Source: a virus
Strand: one strand, 5' to 3'
IMG/VR virus record: IMGVR_UViG_3300034062_001556
Location: 1-25,188 of that record
DNA: 25,188 nt
The notes beneath the pieces were generated by a model. It saw only the letters and a list, made by a program, of their open reading frames with translations. It was not told where the DNA came from and made no database searches. Shown piece after piece: positions 7,507 to 25,188 of the stretch (within the stretch, counting starts at the first letter, position 1; each line of letters starts with the position of its first letter). Made by a program: the position numbers and the translations under genes.

Positions 7507-7969
7507 GCGCAGCAAGTACCGCCCAAAGGCGCAGCTGCACGACCCGCTGACGTGGGTGATCGCCGGGCTGCGGCCCGTGCTGACGGCCACCGAGGTCATG
7601 GACAACGTGCGGATCAAGAACCACCTAGCCCTGCGCTGCGTGGTGGAGGGCACTGCCACCCGCAAGGACATGGACGTGCTCATCGAGGCGTTCAACATCA
7701 CAGAGGCGCTGGCGCGGGTCGATCCAGCCCTTGGCCGCGACTGGGCGGCGGAGATCAAGGCAGGGCAGGACGCGCTGCTGTCGATGTGCAAGCGAGGCGT
7801 CAGCTTAGGCGACCGCTTCGTGTTCACTGGGGCCGAGCTGAACGCGGCCAACACCGTCATGGAACTGCATGACGCGCAGCTGGAGCGCTGCACCGTCGCT
7901 CAGATGGAAAAGGCCATCGGCGAAGTCGTCAAGGACATCAGAAACAAGAAAGCGAGAGCCGTCGTATGA
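7499..7969 (+). CDS. Hypothetical phage protein, 156 aa
   Basis: A 156-aa basic-to-neutral protein from ATG 7499 (overlaps the previous gene by 8 nt; CGAGG ribosome site upstream). Predicted largely helical: MRKRSKYRPKAQLHDPLTWV, a central ALRCVVEGTATRKDMDVLIE helix pair, and a C-terminal charged helix ending in KKARAVV. Similar proteins of this length beginning RKRSKYRPK sit in early regions of betaproteobacterial phages as far as I remember, with no function assigned. ATGA overlap with the next gene. Confidence 0.7.
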   Translation: MRKRSKYRPKAQLHDPLTWVIAGLRPVLTATEVMDNVRIKNHLALRCVVEGTATRKDMDVLIEAFNITEALARVDPALGRDWAAEIKAGQDALLSMCKRGVSLGDRFVFTGAELNAANTVMELHDAQLERCTVAQMEKAIGEVVKDIRNKKARAVV

Positions 7970-8148
7970 ACATCCTCAAGAACCTATTTCGCACCCCAAG
8001 CATCGAGGCTGTTGCCCTGCGCGAGCTGGAGGCCGCCAAGCGCGATCTGTTGCAGATGCAGGACACGCAAGAATACGCTGCCAAGATGGTGGAGTACCAC
8101 CAGGGCAAGATCGAGCGCCTGACGGCCTATCTGAGGGATGCGGCATGA
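7966..8148 (+). CDS. Small coiled-coil protein (60 aa)
   Basis: A 60-aa protein with ATGA overlaps at both ends. After an N-terminal MNILKNLFRTPSIEAVAL segment, almost the whole chain is a charged amphipathic helix (LRELEAAKRDLLQMQDTQE and EYHQGKIERLTAYLRD), typical of a small coiled-coil protein. No motif for activity. It belongs to the packed early micro-gene chain. Confidence 0.65.
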   Translation: MNILKNLFRTPSIEAVALRELEAAKRDLLQMQDTQEYAAKMVEYHQGKIERLTAYLRDAA

Positions 8149-8294
8149 CCGCCCGGATAGGCAAGAAGATGAAAGCCGCCGAGCCACTGCCAGAGTCAGT
8201 CTGGCGGTATTGGCTGGGGCGGCTTGCTTACATCGTGCTGGTGGCCTTGGCGGCCAACCTGATAATGGTCGGGCTGCTGGCGCTTATGCGTTGA
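8145..8294 (+). CDS. Small single-span membrane protein (49 aa)
   Basis: A 49-aa protein, the last gene of the plus-strand run. It has a basic, cytoplasm-facing N-terminus (MTARIGKKMKAAEPLPE) and one transmembrane helix (about residues 26-46, LAYIVLVALAANLIMVGLLA). The positive-inside rule puts the N-terminus in the cytoplasm. Its 3' end overlaps the convergent endolysin gene by 11 bp. A role in lysis or in membrane modification is possible but not shown. Confidence 0.6.
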   Translation: MTARIGKKMKAAEPLPESVWRYWLGRLAYIVLVALAANLIMVGLLALMR

Positions 8295-8883
8295 GCACTT
8301 CCAAGGCGTGGTTGATGTGCTTGACGCGGTCGTCCAAGCCAATGACGCCGCCGTTGATCTTCTTGGTCATGCCGGTGTAGTCCTTGGCGTCGGCTTCCTT
8401 GTTCAGGCCGCGCTTGTTCCAGTACCAAGCAGCTGACAGCGCAGCGTACTTGGGCGCCAGCACCAGGTCGGGGCTGTGGATGAAGTCGATGCCCAGCGCG
8501 TCGCCGCACAGTGTGTAGTTGTCCTTGCCGGTGAGCTGGATGAGGCCACGGCCCTTGTACAGGCTGCCCTCGCCAGTCTCTTCGGTGCCGTTGCCCATGC
8601 GGCCGCCGTAGACCTTGTTGGCGATCTTGTCAGGATCGCGGTGGTAGGGCTTTGCAGCCTCCAGCGTGGGGAAGCGACTGGGCCAGACGCGGCACAGGCC
8701 CTCGGCGCTGTAGTTCAGGTTCTCTTGCAAGGTCTTGAAGTTGCCGGACTCATGGGCGCACTGGCCGATGAACGCCGCCATCCGCAGGGGCGTGTTGATC
8801 TCGTAGCGCTGGAAAGCCTCGTTCAGGGGCTCCAGCCAGTCTTCGGCGATGTGCAGTTCTTTGAGCTGTTCGGCGGTGATCAC
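8284..8883 (-). CDS. Endolysin, glycoside hydrolase family 19 (chitinase/lysozyme-like)
   Basis: A 199-aa peptidoglycan-degrading lysin of the GH19 fold. The proposed catalytic acid lies in CAHESGNF (Glu45), followed by the conserved SLYKGRGLIQLTGKDNY block (about 107-123) and a NGG-type C-terminal element (KINGGVIG). The single domain without a wall-binding module is typical of Gram-negative phages. There is no signal peptide, so export depends on the holin. The start is GTG 8883, with AAAGG upstream and a GTGA overlap with the holin stop. It is the last gene of the late run and overlaps the convergent early membrane-protein gene by 11 bp. Confidence 0.93.
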   Translation of the reverse strand: MITAEQLKELHIAEDWLEPLNEAFQRYEINTPLRMAAFIGQCAHESGNFKTLQENLNYSAEGLCRVWPSRFPTLEAAKPYHRDPDKIANKVYGGRMGNGTEETGEGSLYKGRGLIQLTGKDNYTLCGDALGIDFIHSPDLVLAPKYAALSAAWYWNKRGLNKEADAKDYTGMTKKINGGVIGLDDRVKHINHALEVLNA

Positions 8884-9299
8884 TGTTTGCCTTTCAGGAT
8901 GTCTTTCTGTTGGCTAGAGTTGGACGAGCCGAGCCAGAAGTTGTAAACGGACGCGGTCTCACGGGCCAGCACACCAAGCAGCATCATCATGATGTCTGAA
9001 CCTGTCAATGTCAGCACGCCAAAAGCCGATCCCAGCAGCAGGCTGAAAAAGCCCACCACGGTGATGATCGACAAGAACGCAGGCATGAACGACTTGTTGG
9101 TCTTCTGCATGTCGCGGGCGTCCGCAGTATTTGCGCTGGCGATCTCAAACAGCTTGGTGTCGTTGGCCATCTTGGCCAGCTCACCGTTCTGCTGCATTTG
9201 CGCCAGTTCGGCCTGAGCCTTGGCCTTGGCCTCGGGATCAGGCACAAACTTGTCGACCAGCTTCCCGCCGACTTCGAGTAATGCTGCGAGTGGAAGCAT
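8880..9299 (-). CDS. Holin, 3TM-type (GTA_holin_3TM-like)
   Basis: A 139-aa membrane protein directly upstream of, and translationally coupled to, the endolysin. It starts MLPLAALLEVGGKLVDKFVP, has an acidic/Gln-rich amphipathic stretch (KAKAQAELAQMQQNGE), then two hydrophobic spans (about 71-96, FMPAFLSIITVVGFFSLLLG, and about 102-124, MMMLLGVLARETASVYNFW). This arrangement, with the N-terminal segment as a possible third span, matches the 3TM holin family that accompanies GH19 and other lysins. An AGGAG site lies inside the stop region of the preceding virion gene. It times lysis by permeabilising the inner membrane. Confidence 0.85.
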   Translation of the reverse strand: MLPLAALLEVGGKLVDKFVPDPEAKAKAQAELAQMQQNGELAKMANDTKLFEIASANTADARDMQKTNKSFMPAFLSIITVVGFFSLLLGSAFGVLTLTGSDIMMMLLGVLARETASVYNFWLGSSNSSQQKDILKGKQ

Positions 9300-19959: not shown

Positions 19960-20182
19960 TCAAATCCTCATACGCTCGTTCGCTGACCCCTTTCAGGGTT
20001 TTCAGCCAAGTCAGGATAGAAATCTCGCCTTTGCGAAATTGTAGACTTTTTTCATCCGCAATGGTAGAGACATTGTTCATTGCGTCCAGCATGGTGTCAA
20101 TATCTTCCATCAAGTCGTGCCAGCCCTGCTGCGCAAACAGGTCAAACCTGGCTTCGTAGTACTTTTGCAGCTCAGGCGTCAT
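19943..20182 (-). CDS. Hypothetical phage protein (79 aa)
   Basis: A 79-aa helical, acidic protein (MTPELQKYYEARFDLFAQQG, DLMEDIDTMLDAMNNV, SILTWLKTLKGVSERAYEDL). No recognised family, although proteins of this size with an EARFDLFxxxGW block recur near head genes in podoviruses as far as I recall. The start ATG 20182 has GAGGAAC upstream and overlaps the membrane-protein gene by 11 nt. It overlaps the zinc-ribbon gene by 17 nt. It may be a small head-assembly or DNA-packaging helper, not shown. Confidence 0.68.
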   Translation of the reverse strand: MTPELQKYYEARFDLFAQQGWHDLMEDIDTMLDAMNNVSTIADEKSLQFRKGEISILTWLKTLKGVSERAYEDLNEKNV

Positions 20183-20468
20183 TGGGTTGTTCCTCTTCGG
20201 CGACTTTCTTGGCGACAGCGCTCACAGCCTTGCGGCCAGAAATACCACCCAATGTACCAACGCCCATGAATGCGATGGCCTTGAGAATCTCCAAGAACAC
20301 AGCGTCAATCGGGGCCAGCACTTCGGACTGCTCTTCAAAACCGATCAGCCACAGCACACCAAAAGCGATGCCCAGCACAAGAACGGTGATTGACTTGACG
20401 ACAAAAGCCCAGACACGGACCTCAATATCGTCAGCTGTCAGGCCTTTGTAAGAGTTAAATCCAAGCAT
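20172..20468 (-). CDS. Two-span membrane protein (98 aa)
   Basis: A 98-aa protein with hydrophobic segments at about 22-43 (FVVKSITVLVLGIAFGVLWL) and about 60-80 (LEILKAIAFMGVGTLGGISG). A loop of acidic character lies between them (GFEEQSEVLAPIDAVF), and the C-terminus is charged (KKVAEEEQPNDA). The layout resembles small holin-type proteins, but the true holin lies next to the endolysin, so this could be a second holin-like or antiholin-like protein, or a structural membrane protein. AAGGAG is 5 nt before ATG 20468. Confidence 0.65.
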   Translation of the reverse strand: MLGFNSYKGLTADDIEVRVWAFVVKSITVLVLGIAFGVLWLIGFEEQSEVLAPIDAVFLEILKAIAFMGVGTLGGISGRKAVSAVAKKVAEEEQPNDA

Positions 20469-20477
20469 GGTTTCTCC

Positions 20478-20981
20478 TTATTTGCTCAGTGGGTTGGTGG
20501 TAGCTCGCTTGAGCGAGTTCATCTCGGAACGCAAAGACGCAGCCGTGCTGTCCAAGTCTTGCTTGAGCGCTGCAAGTTTAGTCTGAATCTCGCGGTTCAT
20601 ACTTTCGACGGATGCCTTGGTCTCCCGGCTCATGGCCGCGCCCTCAGCAGCAGCGCCGGAGGCGATGGCCTTGGTCTCGCGGGACAGGGCAATGGCGTCA
20701 GACGCCTTCTCAGCGATCCGCACAGCCTGCTCAGCAATGGACAATTGGCGCTCTTTGACGGACTTCATCTCAATTTCAAAGGCTTGCACCTTCTCGCGCA
20801 AGGCGGTGTCATCGTAGGGCTTGTAGTCGTCCACAGCCTCGATGGTTTCAGTCATCTTGTTGTAGAAGGTCACTCCCGCGTAAGCGCCGCCACCGATCAC
20901 CGGCAGGGCCGTTAGGATCAAGCCAAGCATCATCTGCGGTGACAAGCTCAAGGAGAAAGTCTTGGGTTCTTCGGTAGTCAT
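20478..20981 (-). CDS. Membrane-anchored coiled-coil protein (167 aa)
   Basis: A 167-aa protein with a short cytoplasmic tail, one transmembrane helix (about 16-41, MMLGLILTALPVIGGGAYAG) and a long charged coiled coil over residues about 60-160 (REKVQAFEIEMKSVKERQLS, RAETKA-type repeats SRETKAIAS and SRETKASVE). It resembles i-spanin (Rz-type) architecture: N-terminal anchor plus coiled coil in the periplasm. It is not next to the lysis genes, though, so that is only one reading. ATG 20981 has AGGAG eight bases away. Its first 134 nt overlap the preceding gene out of frame. Confidence 0.68.
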   Translation of the reverse strand: MTTEEPKTFSLSLSPQMMLGLILTALPVIGGGAYAGVTFYNKMTETIEAVDDYKPYDDTALREKVQAFEIEMKSVKERQLSIAEQAVRIAEKASDAIALSRETKAIASGAAAEGAAMSRETKASVESMNREIQTKLAALKQDLDSTAASLRSEMNSLKRATTNPLSK

Positions 20982-21954
20982 CTGGTAGCTCCTGTTTCAA
21001 TACGATTTGTTCAACGATGTTTGGTTGCTTGGGCATTGCCCCGATCAGCGTCAGCCTTTGCACCAGCGCCGCCGCTTTCGCACCACTCCCGACAGTTGGA
21101 GCCGAGACAGATGCGCCCGGAGATGGGGCAGGTGTAGATGGCGACTCCGACTTTGGTGACTCTGGCGTATCGGTAGGTTGAGTCGTCATCGGCGCAGACA
21201 CCACGGGCGCAGTTACAGGCGCGATGGGGGTTGCGGGTGCAGACATGACTGGGCTGACCGGGCTGACCGGCGACAGCACGTTGGTCGGGTTTGTGACCGA
21301 TTTGACGCAGGTATTGGATGAAGTCACCCAAGAACCCCACACAGGCTGCCCATATGGATCGGGGCAGGTGCTGGTCATGGTCTGCGTGATGCTGCCCGTG
21401 AACCCCGCCTGACAGGCGAGCGTCTGAGTCTGCGTGCTTGGTTGACAAGTTGGTGAATTCCATTTGCAAGCATCCTGCGTCAACTGCCACTGCCCCCAGA
21501 CCGGCTGACCGTATGGGTCTTGGCAGGTGCTTTGGCGGGTGTATGTTTTGCTGCCGTTTTGGTTTTGGCCGCAAGATTCTTGGCGGGTTTCGCTACCGGC
21601 TTTGCAGGTCGGTGGGAGCGGGACGCAGGTGTCTGCGACTTTGAACCATCCGCTGTCGGTGGCTGTCCCTCCGATGCAGTTGTTTTCCCGCTTCCACGTT
21701 TGCGTTCCAGAATGATTGATCGGGCAAGGCCGCTGCTCAGTGATGGCTGAGTAGCTGCAAGCTGGAGGTGGAGGTGTGTATGCAGTGCAGTAGGCTTGCT
21801 GCCAAGAGGTGTTGTAGGCTCCGGGGGCACAGGCCCAGCAGGTTGCGTTGGCGTAGCAGTTACCCGTGACAGGGTTGCGCTGATCCGTGCAATAACACCC
21901 TTGAGCAAAGACATTACTTGTCCCCAGCAGGAGCAGGATCAGGAACTTTGCCAT
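20848..21954 (-). CDS. Secreted cysteine-rich repeat protein (TSP1-like), 368 aa
   Basis: A signal peptide (MAKFLILLLLGTSNVFA, cleavage likely before Gln18) is followed by a Cys cluster (20, 22, 33, 39, 42, 56) and then three tandem units at about 66-110, 117-163 and 170-216. In each unit the cysteines follow C-x10-C-x15-C-x16..18-C. Units 2 and 3 also share a DPYGQPVWGxW block. The W-x2-W...C arrangement recalls thrombospondin type 1 repeats. A Pro/Ser/Thr-rich linker (about 225-290) leads to a charged C-terminus. It probably works in the periplasm or outside the cell, possibly altering the host envelope, or could be part of the virion. The last 134 nt overlap the next gene; GAGG is 4 nt before ATG 21954. 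Confidence 0.75.
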   Translation of the reverse strand: MAKFLILLLLGTSNVFAQGCYCTDQRNPVTGNCYANATCWACAPGAYNTSWQQAYCTAYTPPPPACSYSAITEQRPCPINHSGTQTWKRENNCIGGTATDSGWFKVADTCVPLPPTCKAGSETRQESCGQNQNGSKTYTRQSTCQDPYGQPVWGQWQLTQDACKWNSPTCQPSTQTQTLACQAGFTGSITQTMTSTCPDPYGQPVWGSWVTSSNTCVKSVTNPTNVLSPVSPVSPVMSAPATPIAPVTAPVVSAPMTTQPTDTPESPKSESPSTPAPSPGASVSAPTVGSGAKAAALVQRLTLIGAMPKQPNIVEQIVLKQELPDDYRRTQDFLLELVTADDAWLDPNGPAGDRWRRLRGSDLLQQDD

Positions 21955-22357
21955 AGAGCCTCTTGAACCGTTCTGGATGCAGCTTTACCCAAGCCTCCCG
22001 TGCAGTGTCGCCAATCGATCCACCAATAGGGCAGGGAGACCCTGACATTTCCATTGCTTCCCAGACCCGGATGTCGGCGCACAGAATGGCAACAGCGCCC
22101 ACTTTCAGTCCTTGGTTTGACAGCTCACGGGCAAGTTTTATGCGTTCACAATTTGCGTCTGTGACTGTCATGCCACCAGCAAAGCCAATCACGGTGGAGC
22201 TGATCGCGCCCGAGACAGGTATCGCGCAGATGTCGCTACCCATTGCCGTGACCGATGGGGCCATTGCAGTGGGTGGCGGTTGGCCTTTGTAATTGATTGT
22301 CGTGTCTTGAGCCATTGCAGACGATGCAAAGGCCAAGAGAAAAAGTATGGCTCTCAT
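21914..22357 (-). CDS. Exported protein with signal peptide (147 aa)
   Basis: From ATG 22357 the protein has a clear signal peptide (MRAILFLLAFASSAMA, cleavage before Gln). The mature domain of about 130 aa has four cysteines (residues in DICAIP, ANCERIK, LCADIR, SPCPIGG) that may form two disulphides in the periplasm, plus helical segments (CERIKLARELSNQGLKVGA). The open frame also starts at a TTG 12 nt earlier, but ATG 22357 gives a normal signal peptide and an ATGA overlap with the upstream gene. No family recognised. It lies in the block of envelope-directed genes and overlaps the Cys-repeat gene by 41 nt. Confidence 0.72.
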   Translation of the reverse strand: MRAILFLLAFASSAMAQDTTINYKGQPPPTAMAPSVTAMGSDICAIPVSGAISSTVIGFAGGMTVTDANCERIKLARELSNQGLKVGAVAILCADIRVWEAMEMSGSPCPIGGSIGDTAREAWVKLHPERFKRLYGKVPDPAPAGDK

Positions 22358-22637: not shown

Positions 22638-22943
22638 TCACTCCCAAGGTGTTCCGGTGGCAACTTTAGGAGCCTTCTGGTCAGCAATATTTGCATCCAG
22701 AGCAGCATCCACAGCAGTAACGCCTTCTTCGCCCAAGGATGCCTTTACCCACTGCACAACAGCAGCTTCTGTTAGGTCAGCATAAGGCACATAGTTGATA
22801 CCGTCTTCTTTGGTGAAGCTGGCTGTGCTGTATGTTGAGGCTGAGAACTCACCGTCAACTTGTGAGGCGTTCCAATGCACTACGGTGACGAAACCGTCAG
22901 CAGTGTTGCGATCCATTTGGGAGATTTTGAATGTGGTAGTCAT
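22638..22943 (-). CDS. Conserved-type phage protein downstream of the tail fibre (101 aa)
   Basis: A 101-aa protein with a beta-rich N-terminal part (TTTFKISQMDRNTADGFVTV, VHWNASQVDGEFSAS) and a helical C-terminal part (ADLTEAAVVQWVKASLGEEG). Proteins like this recur directly next to tail-fibre genes in aquatic phages as far as I recall (DUF7936-type), and no function is known. ATG 22943 has AAGGAAC upstream. It lies 11 nt after the tail-fibre stop. It may be a fibre chaperone or small virion protein; that is inference. Confidence 0.75.
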   Translation of the reverse strand: MTTTFKISQMDRNTADGFVTVVHWNASQVDGEFSASTYSTASFTKEDGINYVPYADLTEAAVVQWVKASLGEEGVTAVDAALDANIADQKAPKVATGTPWE

Positions 22944-22954
22944 GGTTGTTCCTT

Positions 22955-25188
22955 TCAGGGGTGGGTTGCTTTGTATGCGTCAAACTCGGCTTTGAGTTCT
23001 TGAATTGCCGCTGTGAGGGTGGCGACCAAAAAGCTGGTGTCGATGCCTTGGTAGACGGGCTTGCCTTCTGCATCCACTGCGTCTTTTTCGCCAGTAACAC
23101 AGTCAGGCACAACGGCTTGCAACTCATGGGCAATAAAGCCCTGACCATCAGAACCGTCAGCCTTCCATTTGTAAGTGCAGGGTTTAAGTTGCTGAACGAC
23201 AGACAAAGCGCCAGTCATTGGTGCTACGTCTTCTTTCAGGCGGTAATCGGAAGATGTGACATAGGAAGTTGCTGTCGAAGTGATGGCAATCTTTCCCACG
23301 TTTGTTGTAGACGTGTTGAAATAAATAGCATCGGCGTTAGATGTGTTTGCTGCTGTAAAAACAGCGCCTGAACCAATACCACCTCCCCATCCATTAACAA
23401 ACAGTGCCGTCCCTTGAGAGCCACCAATGCTGTTAATGCTTACGTGACCCCCTGCACTCGTAGTCCCCACCAGCAAGTTACCGCTGGAGTCGATACGGGC
23501 GCGTTCTGACTGAACCCCAAAACGATCTTTAGTAGCAAACGTAAGATTAGCGCCGCCGTCTGTTCCACCAGAGCCTACTGCTTTTATAGACGCTGTTTGA
23601 TCGGTTGTTCCAGATGAATTTGCCGCCTCCAACAGCAATTCACTTGTGGCGTTATTGCCGCTAGTGCGTAGCTCAATTTTTGCATTGCTTGCGTTTGTTA
23701 GTCTTAAATTGCCACCAGAAACATCCAGCTTTGCACTCGGAGAACTCGTCCCAATACCCAGATTCGTCCCATCAAACGTCAGCGCACTCCCCGTGGTCAG
23801 GACTTTGGAGCCGTTGAGGTAGGTGACTCCGTTGGCTGTGCCGCCGTTATGCGTAACAGTAGACGATGTTGTCAGGGTTGTTGCAGATACAGCAGCAGCC
23901 GTTGTGCCGCCAATCGCTGGAGGGCTGCTGAGGTCCAGCGTGCCGCCCAGGGTCAAGTTACCCGACGAGGTGACCGTACCTGACAGCGAGATGCCGTTGA
24001 CTGTGCCCGTGCCGCCGACGCTGGTCACCGTGCCATCGTACTGATCGTCCGACGCAATGGTGAAGTTAGGGTATGTGCCTGTGACCGTAGTTGTGCCCGA
24101 GCCAGTCAGAGCAACTGTCTGGTCAGGAGCTGCGTTGGTAATCGTGAAGTTCGGATATGTGCCCGAGGTGCTGATCCCAGTACCTGCGGTCAGCGCGACC
24201 GTCTGGTCAGGGGCCGCGTTGGTGATGGTGAAGTTCGGATAGGTGCCGCTGGTGCTGATCCCAGTACCTGCGGTCAGCGCGACCGTCTGGTCAGGGGCCG
24301 AGTTGGTCACCACTCCAGTGCTGGAGTCGTAGCTGATACCCGTGCCTGCACTGATGGCCGCACGGGCGCGGGCGTCAGTGTAGTATTGGTTCGTGCCTTC
24401 GCTGATGTTGGTCGTGCTCAGGCTGACCGCACCGGTCTGACCGTTGACCGAGGTCACCAAGTTCGACTGGTCAATCTTTTGCCACACGGTGCCATTGAAA
24501 ATCAGCCAGTCGCCGATCTGCCAGTCCGTGATGCCGTCTAGGTTGGTCGAGCCAGCTGTGGCCACCACATAGTAGTAGCCGTTGGTGCCTGTGCCAGACG
24601 CCAGTGTGGGCGTGTTGGTGCTCGCGTTCCAAGTGCCTTCATAGCTCAAGCCACCCACCGCGCTGCCCCAAGACAAGGCCGAACCATTGGTCGTCAGGAA
24701 CTTGCCTGCGTTGCCTGTCTGGTCAGGAATCAGGTTGTCGATCTGGGTCTGGAGGCTGGCCAGTGTATCGAGCACTTGCTGGCTGGTGCCGCCGCCGTTG
24801 GTGATCACCTTGATCTTCTCGGCCAGATCAGGGGCCACGACCTCACCCACGTTGATCGTGCGGCCCGACGACAGGCTGATGATCAGCGAGCCGTCGAAGT
24901 CGATGTGTGCGTCGGTAACAGAAACACCGTCGTCGCCGTCACGGCCGTCACGGCCGTTCAGGCCGTCAGCGCCGCGTGGCCCCGTGCCGCCGTCACGGCC
25001 TGGGCGGCCGTCTTTGCCGTCCTTGCCGTTGACGCCGTTGCGCCCGTCTTGGCCGTCCTTGATGGTGGCCACACGCTTTTCGATCTTGTTGCCGACCTCG
25101 TCGTAGCGGCTGCGGATGTCCGCCTCCATCTTCTTGAGGGCCTGCACCACGACTTGCACGTTCTCGCCGATGCGCTGCTTTTGCACCT
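22955..25188 (-). CDS. Tail fibre with collagen-like stalk and C-terminal S74 chaperone (partial at right edge)
   Basis: At least 743 aa, open to the right window edge; the GTG at 25186 is unlikely to be the true start. Order: coiled coil (about 1-40), collagen-like G-x-y repeats (45-87, GKDGKDGRPGRDGG), beta-rich shaft, three copies of a 28-aa repeat (about 296-378), further shaft domains, and a C-terminal S74 intramolecular chaperone beginning at SSDYRLKEDV (about residue 645). S74 domains fold the trimer and then cut themselves off before the Ser. It is the host-recognition fibre and the first late gene visible here. Confidence 0.88.
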   Translation of the reverse strand, partial: VQKQRIGENVQVVVQALKKMEADIRSRYDEVGNKIEKRVATIKDGQDGRNGVNGKDGKDGRPGRDGGTGPRGADGLNGRDGRDGDDGVSVTDAHIDFDGSLIISLSSGRTINVGEVVAPDLAEKIKVITNGGGTSQQVLDTLASLQTQIDNLIPDQTGNAGKFLTTNGSALSWGSAVGGLSYEGTWNASTNTPTLASGTGTNGYYYVVATAGSTNLDGITDWQIGDWLIFNGTVWQKIDQSNLVTSVNGQTGAVSLSTTNISEGTNQYYTDARARAAISAGTGISYDSSTGVVTNSAPDQTVALTAGTGISTSGTYPNFTITNAAPDQTVALTAGTGISTSGTYPNFTITNAAPDQTVALTGSGTTTVTGTYPNFTIASDDQYDGTVTSVGGTGTVNGISLSGTVTSSGNLTLGGTLDLSSPPAIGGTTAAAVSATTLTTSSTVTHNGGTANGVTYLNGSKVLTTGSALTFDGTNLGIGTSSPSAKLDVSGGNLRLTNASNAKIELRTSGNNATSELLLEAANSSGTTDQTASIKAVGSGGTDGGANLTFATKDRFGVQSERARIDSSGNLLVGTTSAGGHVSINSIGGSQGTALFVNGWGGGIGSGAVFTAANTSNADAIYFNTSTTNVGKIAITSTATSYVTSSDYRLKEDVAPMTGALSVVQQLKPCTYKWKADGSDGQGFIAHELQAVVPDCVTGEKDAVDAEGKPVYQGIDTSFLVATLTAAIQELKAEFDAYKATHP
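24051..24301 (-). repeat. 84-bp tandem repeats within the tail fibre gene
   Basis: Three in-frame copies of a 28-codon unit (APDQTVALTAGTGISTSG start) span about 24051-24301. The first two in reading order are nearly identical also at DNA level, whereas the third has diverged (GSGTTTVTGTYPNF). The period is exactly 84 bp. This looks like a beta-helical or shaft repeat that can change length by recombination. Confidence 0.85.
24926..25054 (-). repeat. Collagen-like G-x-y repeat region in the tail fibre
   Basis: Residues about 45-87 of the fibre are an almost unbroken series of Gly-x-y triplets rich in Asp, Arg and Lys. At DNA level this is a 9-bp-like low-complexity repeat (GCCGTC units). Collagen-like stalks form triple helices and make the fibre trimeric and stiff. 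Confidence 0.8.

Follow-up and report, generated by a model that had tools for sequence, protein, structure and literature searches.

A conserved three-gene cassette encoding an exported cysteine-module protein in phages of aquatic bacteria

The flagged gene and its two neighbors

The window, a 25,188-nt stretch of the virus record IMGVR_UViG_3300034062_001556, carries on its minus strand three overlapping genes, A, B, and C, and the protein flagged by the initial annotation is the product of B, the middle gene of this conserved cassette. Gene B (20848..21954, 368 aa) starts with an ATG preceded by AGAGG and encodes a signal peptide, an N-terminal cysteine-rich cap, three cysteine modules, a linker, and a C-terminal region. 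The signal peptide (residues 1-17, 21904..21954) was judged by eye to be of type I without a lipobox, reading MAKFLILLLLGTSNVFA up to a cleavage site before QGC, and a hydrophobic N-terminus is found in nearly all B relatives. The cap (residues 18-63, 21766..21903) contains six cysteines and is the fastest-changing part of the protein. It is followed by module 1 (C66-C110, 21625..21759), module 2 (C117-C163, 21466..21606, with DPYGQPVWGQW), and module 3 (C170-C216, 21307..21447, with DPYGQPVWGSW), and then by the TNPTNVLSPVSP segment and a Pro/Ser/Thr linker (21085..21291), which are predicted to be disordered (pLDDT 40-50 for most). The conserved C-terminal region (20851..21084), with the charged tail, comes last; the 3' end of B overlaps gene C by 134 nt, so that the final 44 codons of B double as the beginning of the C reading frame.

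B contains 18 cysteines, and the gaps counted from C66 (10-15-16, 6, 10-15-18, 6, and 10-15-18) define three four-cysteine modules, C-x10-C-x15-C-x16/18/18-C, with a repeat length of 51-53 residues. Three such units appeared in none of 20,000 composition-preserving shuffles of the cysteine-rich part of B. Among 133 modules from about 60 repeat-bearing relatives, the first gap is always x10, the second x15 or x16, and the last x14-19, and the number of modules per protein, counted with the strict pattern, ranges from 1-2 up to 5. The signal peptide, the three units of constant cysteine spacing, the DPYGQPVWGxW motif in two of them, the Pro/Ser/Thr linker, and the charged tail had all been described in the initial annotation, and all were recovered here; the six-cysteine cap and the overlap with the next gene were missing from it. 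Its proposal of an exported, very probably disulfide-bonded phage protein is supported, the signal peptide and the cysteine spacing being kept in related phages.

Gene A (21914..22357, minus strand, 147 aa) encodes an exported protein with the signal peptide MRAILFLLAFASSAMA and four conserved cysteines, and it overlaps gene B by 41 nt. Twelve columns are invariant among 81 A relatives, and the A domain lies within PHROG 20531 (function unknown; profile positions about 185-278), which covers this domain and says nothing on B or C. Gene C (20478..20981, minus strand, 167 aa), the ATG of which is preceded by AGGAG, encodes a protein with an N-terminal membrane anchor, a long helical/coiled-coil region, and the C-terminal sequence LKRATTNPLSK, whose N-P-L motif (NPLSK) is encoded at 20481..20495. 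The N-P-L end is present in 85 distinct C proteins, for the selection of which the motif itself served, and in only 13 (0.8%) of the 1560 further ORFs with a membrane anchor at these loci.

The order A-B-C with the C motif was observed at 100 of 103 loci having a complete B, where C was picked by its motif, an end of the form N-[P/R/K]-[L/M] within 700 nt, and where the loci are partly dependent, some being the same contig fetched twice. Of the three remaining loci, two are cut off by the contig end, and the third is that of HTVC115P, in which a motif-bearing C lies further on. When an HMM of freshwater C proteins was used, the syntenic marine C was the top match at 26 of 28 loci, and with the marine HMM the syntenic C was the top match at 56 of 57 freshwater loci, individual E-values often being modest. 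Judged from these sequence comparisons, the C proteins are one family. The flagged protein has to be viewed as a member of this set of three genes, which was unseen in the initial annotation.

Fold comparisons and distribution

In an AlphaFold2 model of B built with 50 relatives, most of the modules have pLDDT values of 93-97 and are predicted to consist of beta-strands, three per module, and the linker falls below 50. The outcome that would have refuted the initial annotation, prediction of an unstructured chain with no conserved homologues, was thus not obtained. Together the modules could make up an extended rod, and we infer that disulfide pairing takes place inside each module. The core of the A protein (pLDDT about 90) is predicted to comprise two long strands followed by helices. 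No significant fold match in the PDB was obtained for A or for B, and BFVD contained one real B relative, H6BJ76 (E 4e-8, 30% identity), which carries no name.

The initial annotation had likened the repeats to thrombospondin type 1 (TSP1) modules. A TSP1 repeat contains six cysteines forming three disulfides per about 60 residues and has a three-stranded fold with a Trp/Arg ladder. The B modules resemble it in W-x-x-W, ordered cysteines, and three predicted beta strands per unit, but differ in the number of cysteines, the order of W and Cys, and the profile match. The identification of B as a TSP1 repeat was rejected, since each 51-53-residue repeat has four cysteines rather than six, and since the Pfam search of 50 B proteins and the flagged protein (P0001) gave no match to the TSP family at E up to 1. 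Among the Foldseek and VIA matches listed for the B modules there is no TSP1 chain, a result that is still compatible with a TSP1-like fold.

Display of an adhesin or an aggregation factor outside the infected cell, a role that has been suggested for phage curli, would fit the rod-like modules and their weak structural likeness to repeats of the staphylococcal proteins SasG and Aap (VIA Z 4.0-4.3). These Z values, however, are within the background range, and no secretion pore was found in the phages by the CsgG search, so that such a function appears improbable. Type VIII secretion (curli) genes are reported from pelagiphages, some groups of which are related to cassette carriers (PMC9599517, PMC7029224, PMC9004378), and the phage curli clusters are likewise exported multi-gene sets in aquatic phages. 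A CsgG search of 14 viral contigs and of nine named phage records, Mosig included, was negative, and Pfam gave no match to Curlin or CsgF; the cassette as a curli or type VIII secretion system was rejected on the negative CsgG search.

B has no match in Pfam, PHROGs, or NCBIfam, and 50 of its relatives have none in Pfam, which agrees with the initial statement that no standard phage role is known for it. A scan of viral contigs yielded 18 relatives of B, beside which genes A and C recur, and a phage collection yielded one, MW202481.1, labeled 'transport protein tonB'. Gene A is more widespread, with relatives in at least 593 viral contigs; among cultured phages, it occurs in the Pelagibacter phages HTVC115P, HTVC023P, HTVC202P, HTVC033P, Baldr, and the T4-like Mosig, as well as the Roseobacter phages CRP-810 and CRP-207. 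Downstream of A, these phages encode a large exported protein (B) and, after it, a small anchored coiled-coil protein (C), an order shared by many unrelated aquatic phages. For CRP-810, GenBank names C (L021:6264-6686) 'lysozyme' and A (L021:4878-5633) 'OmpA family protein', names to which sequence comparisons give no support.

Among bacterial and archaeal genomes, gene A was found in 13 contigs, all of them metagenome-assembled or single-cell, and in no isolate genome; the mixed and improbable taxonomy of these contigs is that expected of phage contigs binned with metagenome-assembled genomes (MAGs). Three A-bearing phage contigs in archaeal and Flavobacteriaceae MAGs (L115, L116, and L119) are likely contamination. 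The cysteine modules are rare in bacteria, matching in two of 398 sampled genomes, one of them convincingly, and had no match in plasmids. The convincing match (L129:1-2676, minus strand) is a protein that has a prepilin-like N-terminus, carries the same cysteine modules, and measures at least 892 aa.

The cysteine modules are a feature of freshwater B. In marine phages, B is replaced by unrelated domains, and pelagiphage B proteins contain other domains together with acidic linkers. When freshwater and marine B were compared by hhalign, their C-terminal regions showed no homology (probability <1%), and an apparent match between two marine B sets was void because near-identical members were present in both. 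The B class is thus united across phages by position and architecture only. Three further B proteins at the same place (L101:1651-3732, L108:6579-8981, and L110:6474-8615) have a different cysteine repeat, QQC-x3-(N)PLY-x3-C-x-GY-x2-AY, and up to 32 cysteines.

Genomic surroundings and comparison with spanins

The cassette of the window sits among late genes, between tail fiber and scaffold. A tail-fiber-like protein that contains collagen repeats and, at its C-terminus, an S74 chaperone domain (22955-25186, minus strand) and a DUF7936/PHROG 7802 protein (22638-22943, minus strand), which lies between the tail fiber and gene A, precede it. This position would suit the virion adhesin offered by the initial annotation. 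On the other hand, A and B have signal peptides and C has a membrane anchor, all conserved throughout; the signal peptide speaks against an adhesin of the virion, which is unlikely, and a place for B in the particle is given very little probability.

C is followed, in the window and in many relatives, by a gene for a 98-aa two-TM protein (20172..20468, minus strand; PHROG 25359, unknown function) that is holin-like by look. In freshwater members, genes for small membrane proteins, for a 3-TM holin-like protein, or for an Rz-like spanin separate C from an endolysin gene that comes after them. Of the 76 non-redundant loci with room or a match, 58 have an endolysin that begins no more than 5 kb, and mostly no more than 1.5 kb, downstream of C, these loci being mutually related and not independent events. 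The downstream endolysins are of three unrelated kinds, GH19, GH24-type, and M15, which suggests that the place is kept and the enzyme exchanged; in the cultured phage HTVC023P, an M15 peptidase follows C directly. In MW202481.1, an SprT-like metalloprotease gene (L002:7093-7431) lies between C and the holin-like gene, and such a gene is perhaps also present in the L050-L083 group.

The C family shows, by sequence and hydropathy, the single N-terminal TM segment and putative periplasmic coiled coil by which i-spanins are recognized. A spanin-like mechanism, in which C would be an i-spanin analogue with B and A as its partners in a lipoprotein-free disruption of the outer membrane, would be a sharper form of the explanation that we prefer below. 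Lambda Rz/Rz1 and the cassette have in common an inner-membrane anchor with a coiled coil, a Pro-rich exported partner, overlapping genes, and a place in the lysis region; moreover, a search for Rz-like spanins with a profile found none in 12 of 17 cassette-bearing records, most of the 17 being fragments. In contrast to Rz/Rz1, the cassette comprises three genes without a lipoprotein, its exported partner lies upstream of C, an order opposite to that known for spanins, and it has a variable tip and is sometimes beside a real Rz-like gene. In a scan with the consensus of PMC6139136, a canonical lipobox was found in 0 of 55 and 0 of 34 B proteins and in 2 of 108 A proteins, and A or B as a lipoprotein or o-spanin was therefore rejected. 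AWAC, a functional lipobox (PMC6139136), occurs in two B proteins. C and an Rz-like spanin occur together in five of the 17 records, and C is therefore not simply the i-spanin of these phages. A spanin-like mechanism is accordingly rated quite unlikely.

Possible roles at the host envelope

The reading that we prefer, with a probability of about 0.4, is that A, B, and C form a Sec-exported, inner-membrane-tethered envelope complex that acts late, most likely in lysis or release. A and B would be carried to the periplasm by Sec and folded there with disulfides, and C would stand in the inner membrane and cross the periplasm, its N-P-L end docking A or the C-terminal region of B. The changeable tip of the B rod may then face the outer membrane, the peptidoglycan, or the cell exterior. 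With less certainty, the complex could be made late together with the neighboring lysis genes and help to breach or loosen the envelope at virion release. Contact among the three proteins is suggested by synteny, the kept N-P-L end, and the overlapping genes.

Linkage to lysis genes favors a role in release, and the changing tip of B favors binding of a variable surface target; the former is ranked somewhat above the latter. Several points argue against lysis. A fast-changing tip is not expected of a lysis protein, the GH19 endolysin and GTA-type 3-TM holin of the window (8284-9299) are about 11 kb off the cassette, and in several marine phages the cassette adjoins terminase or capsid genes.

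Shielding of the cell surface by B, one of the possibilities raised by the initial annotation, remains one of two live readings. Here the tip of B, held in the envelope by A and C, would bind a glycan of the cell surface or the receptor that the phage itself uses and block the uptake of virions by infected cells or debris, working like T5 Llp with a different build. Among 131 freshwater pairs with A 90-99% identical, median identity was lowest in the cap (69%), next lowest in the last module (77%), and higher in C (86%) and in the tail (87%), and the low conservation of the cap suggests that the tip of B is its changeable end. Receptor masking is further favored by the replacement of marine B by unrelated domains, with one weak match to the carbohydrate-binding family CBM_4_9 (E 0.02, below cut-off), by the tail-fiber gene two genes upstream of A in the window and tail-fiber PHROGs upstream in some relatives, and by the occurrence of the module family in the large bacterial protein with a prepilin-like start. 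However, linkage to tail fibers is not general, the exclusion proteins known so far are mostly products of one early gene each, and an outer-membrane route is not evident, neither a lipobox nor a CsgG pore being found in these phages. Llp is likewise a phage protein exported to the envelope, and binding of a surface target is imaginable for the cassette, but Llp is a small lipoprotein that acts alone on FhuA. Receptor masking is thus regarded as the main rival, a possible, if doubtful, explanation.

Returning to the preferred envelope complex, its boldest version is a lipoprotein-free, three-component trans-envelope machine that disrupts the outer membrane at lysis in many marine and freshwater phages, in which C would span the periplasm, its N-P-L end would engage A, and the rod of B would grip the outer layer. 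This version is considered unlikely; if true, the machine would account for the final step of lysis, so far missing, in many aquatic phages that apparently have no spanin. Spanins were unrecognized in 91 of 677 phages (PMC6139136), and the opening of the outer membrane by phages without recognizable spanins is a question that the cassette touches and that can be tested, since cultured cassette-carrying phages exist.

This exported set is common to phages whose hosts (SAR11, Roseobacter, and, judging by habitat, freshwater proteobacteria) are among the most abundant bacteria in water. One of its genes is strictly conserved, one has a fixed end, and the third is wholly replaced, and such conservation predicts strong selection on a step that takes place at the host envelope. 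What appears to be new is the cassette and its protein families, the role of which may prove to be a variant of lysis or exclusion. No paper describing the three genes was found in open-access text, and no mention of them was found in papers on pelagiphage lysis or on the phages HTVC115P and CRP-810. HTVC115P encodes two C paralogues (L023:6887-7249 and 7592-8020), of which the second alone has the N-P-L end.
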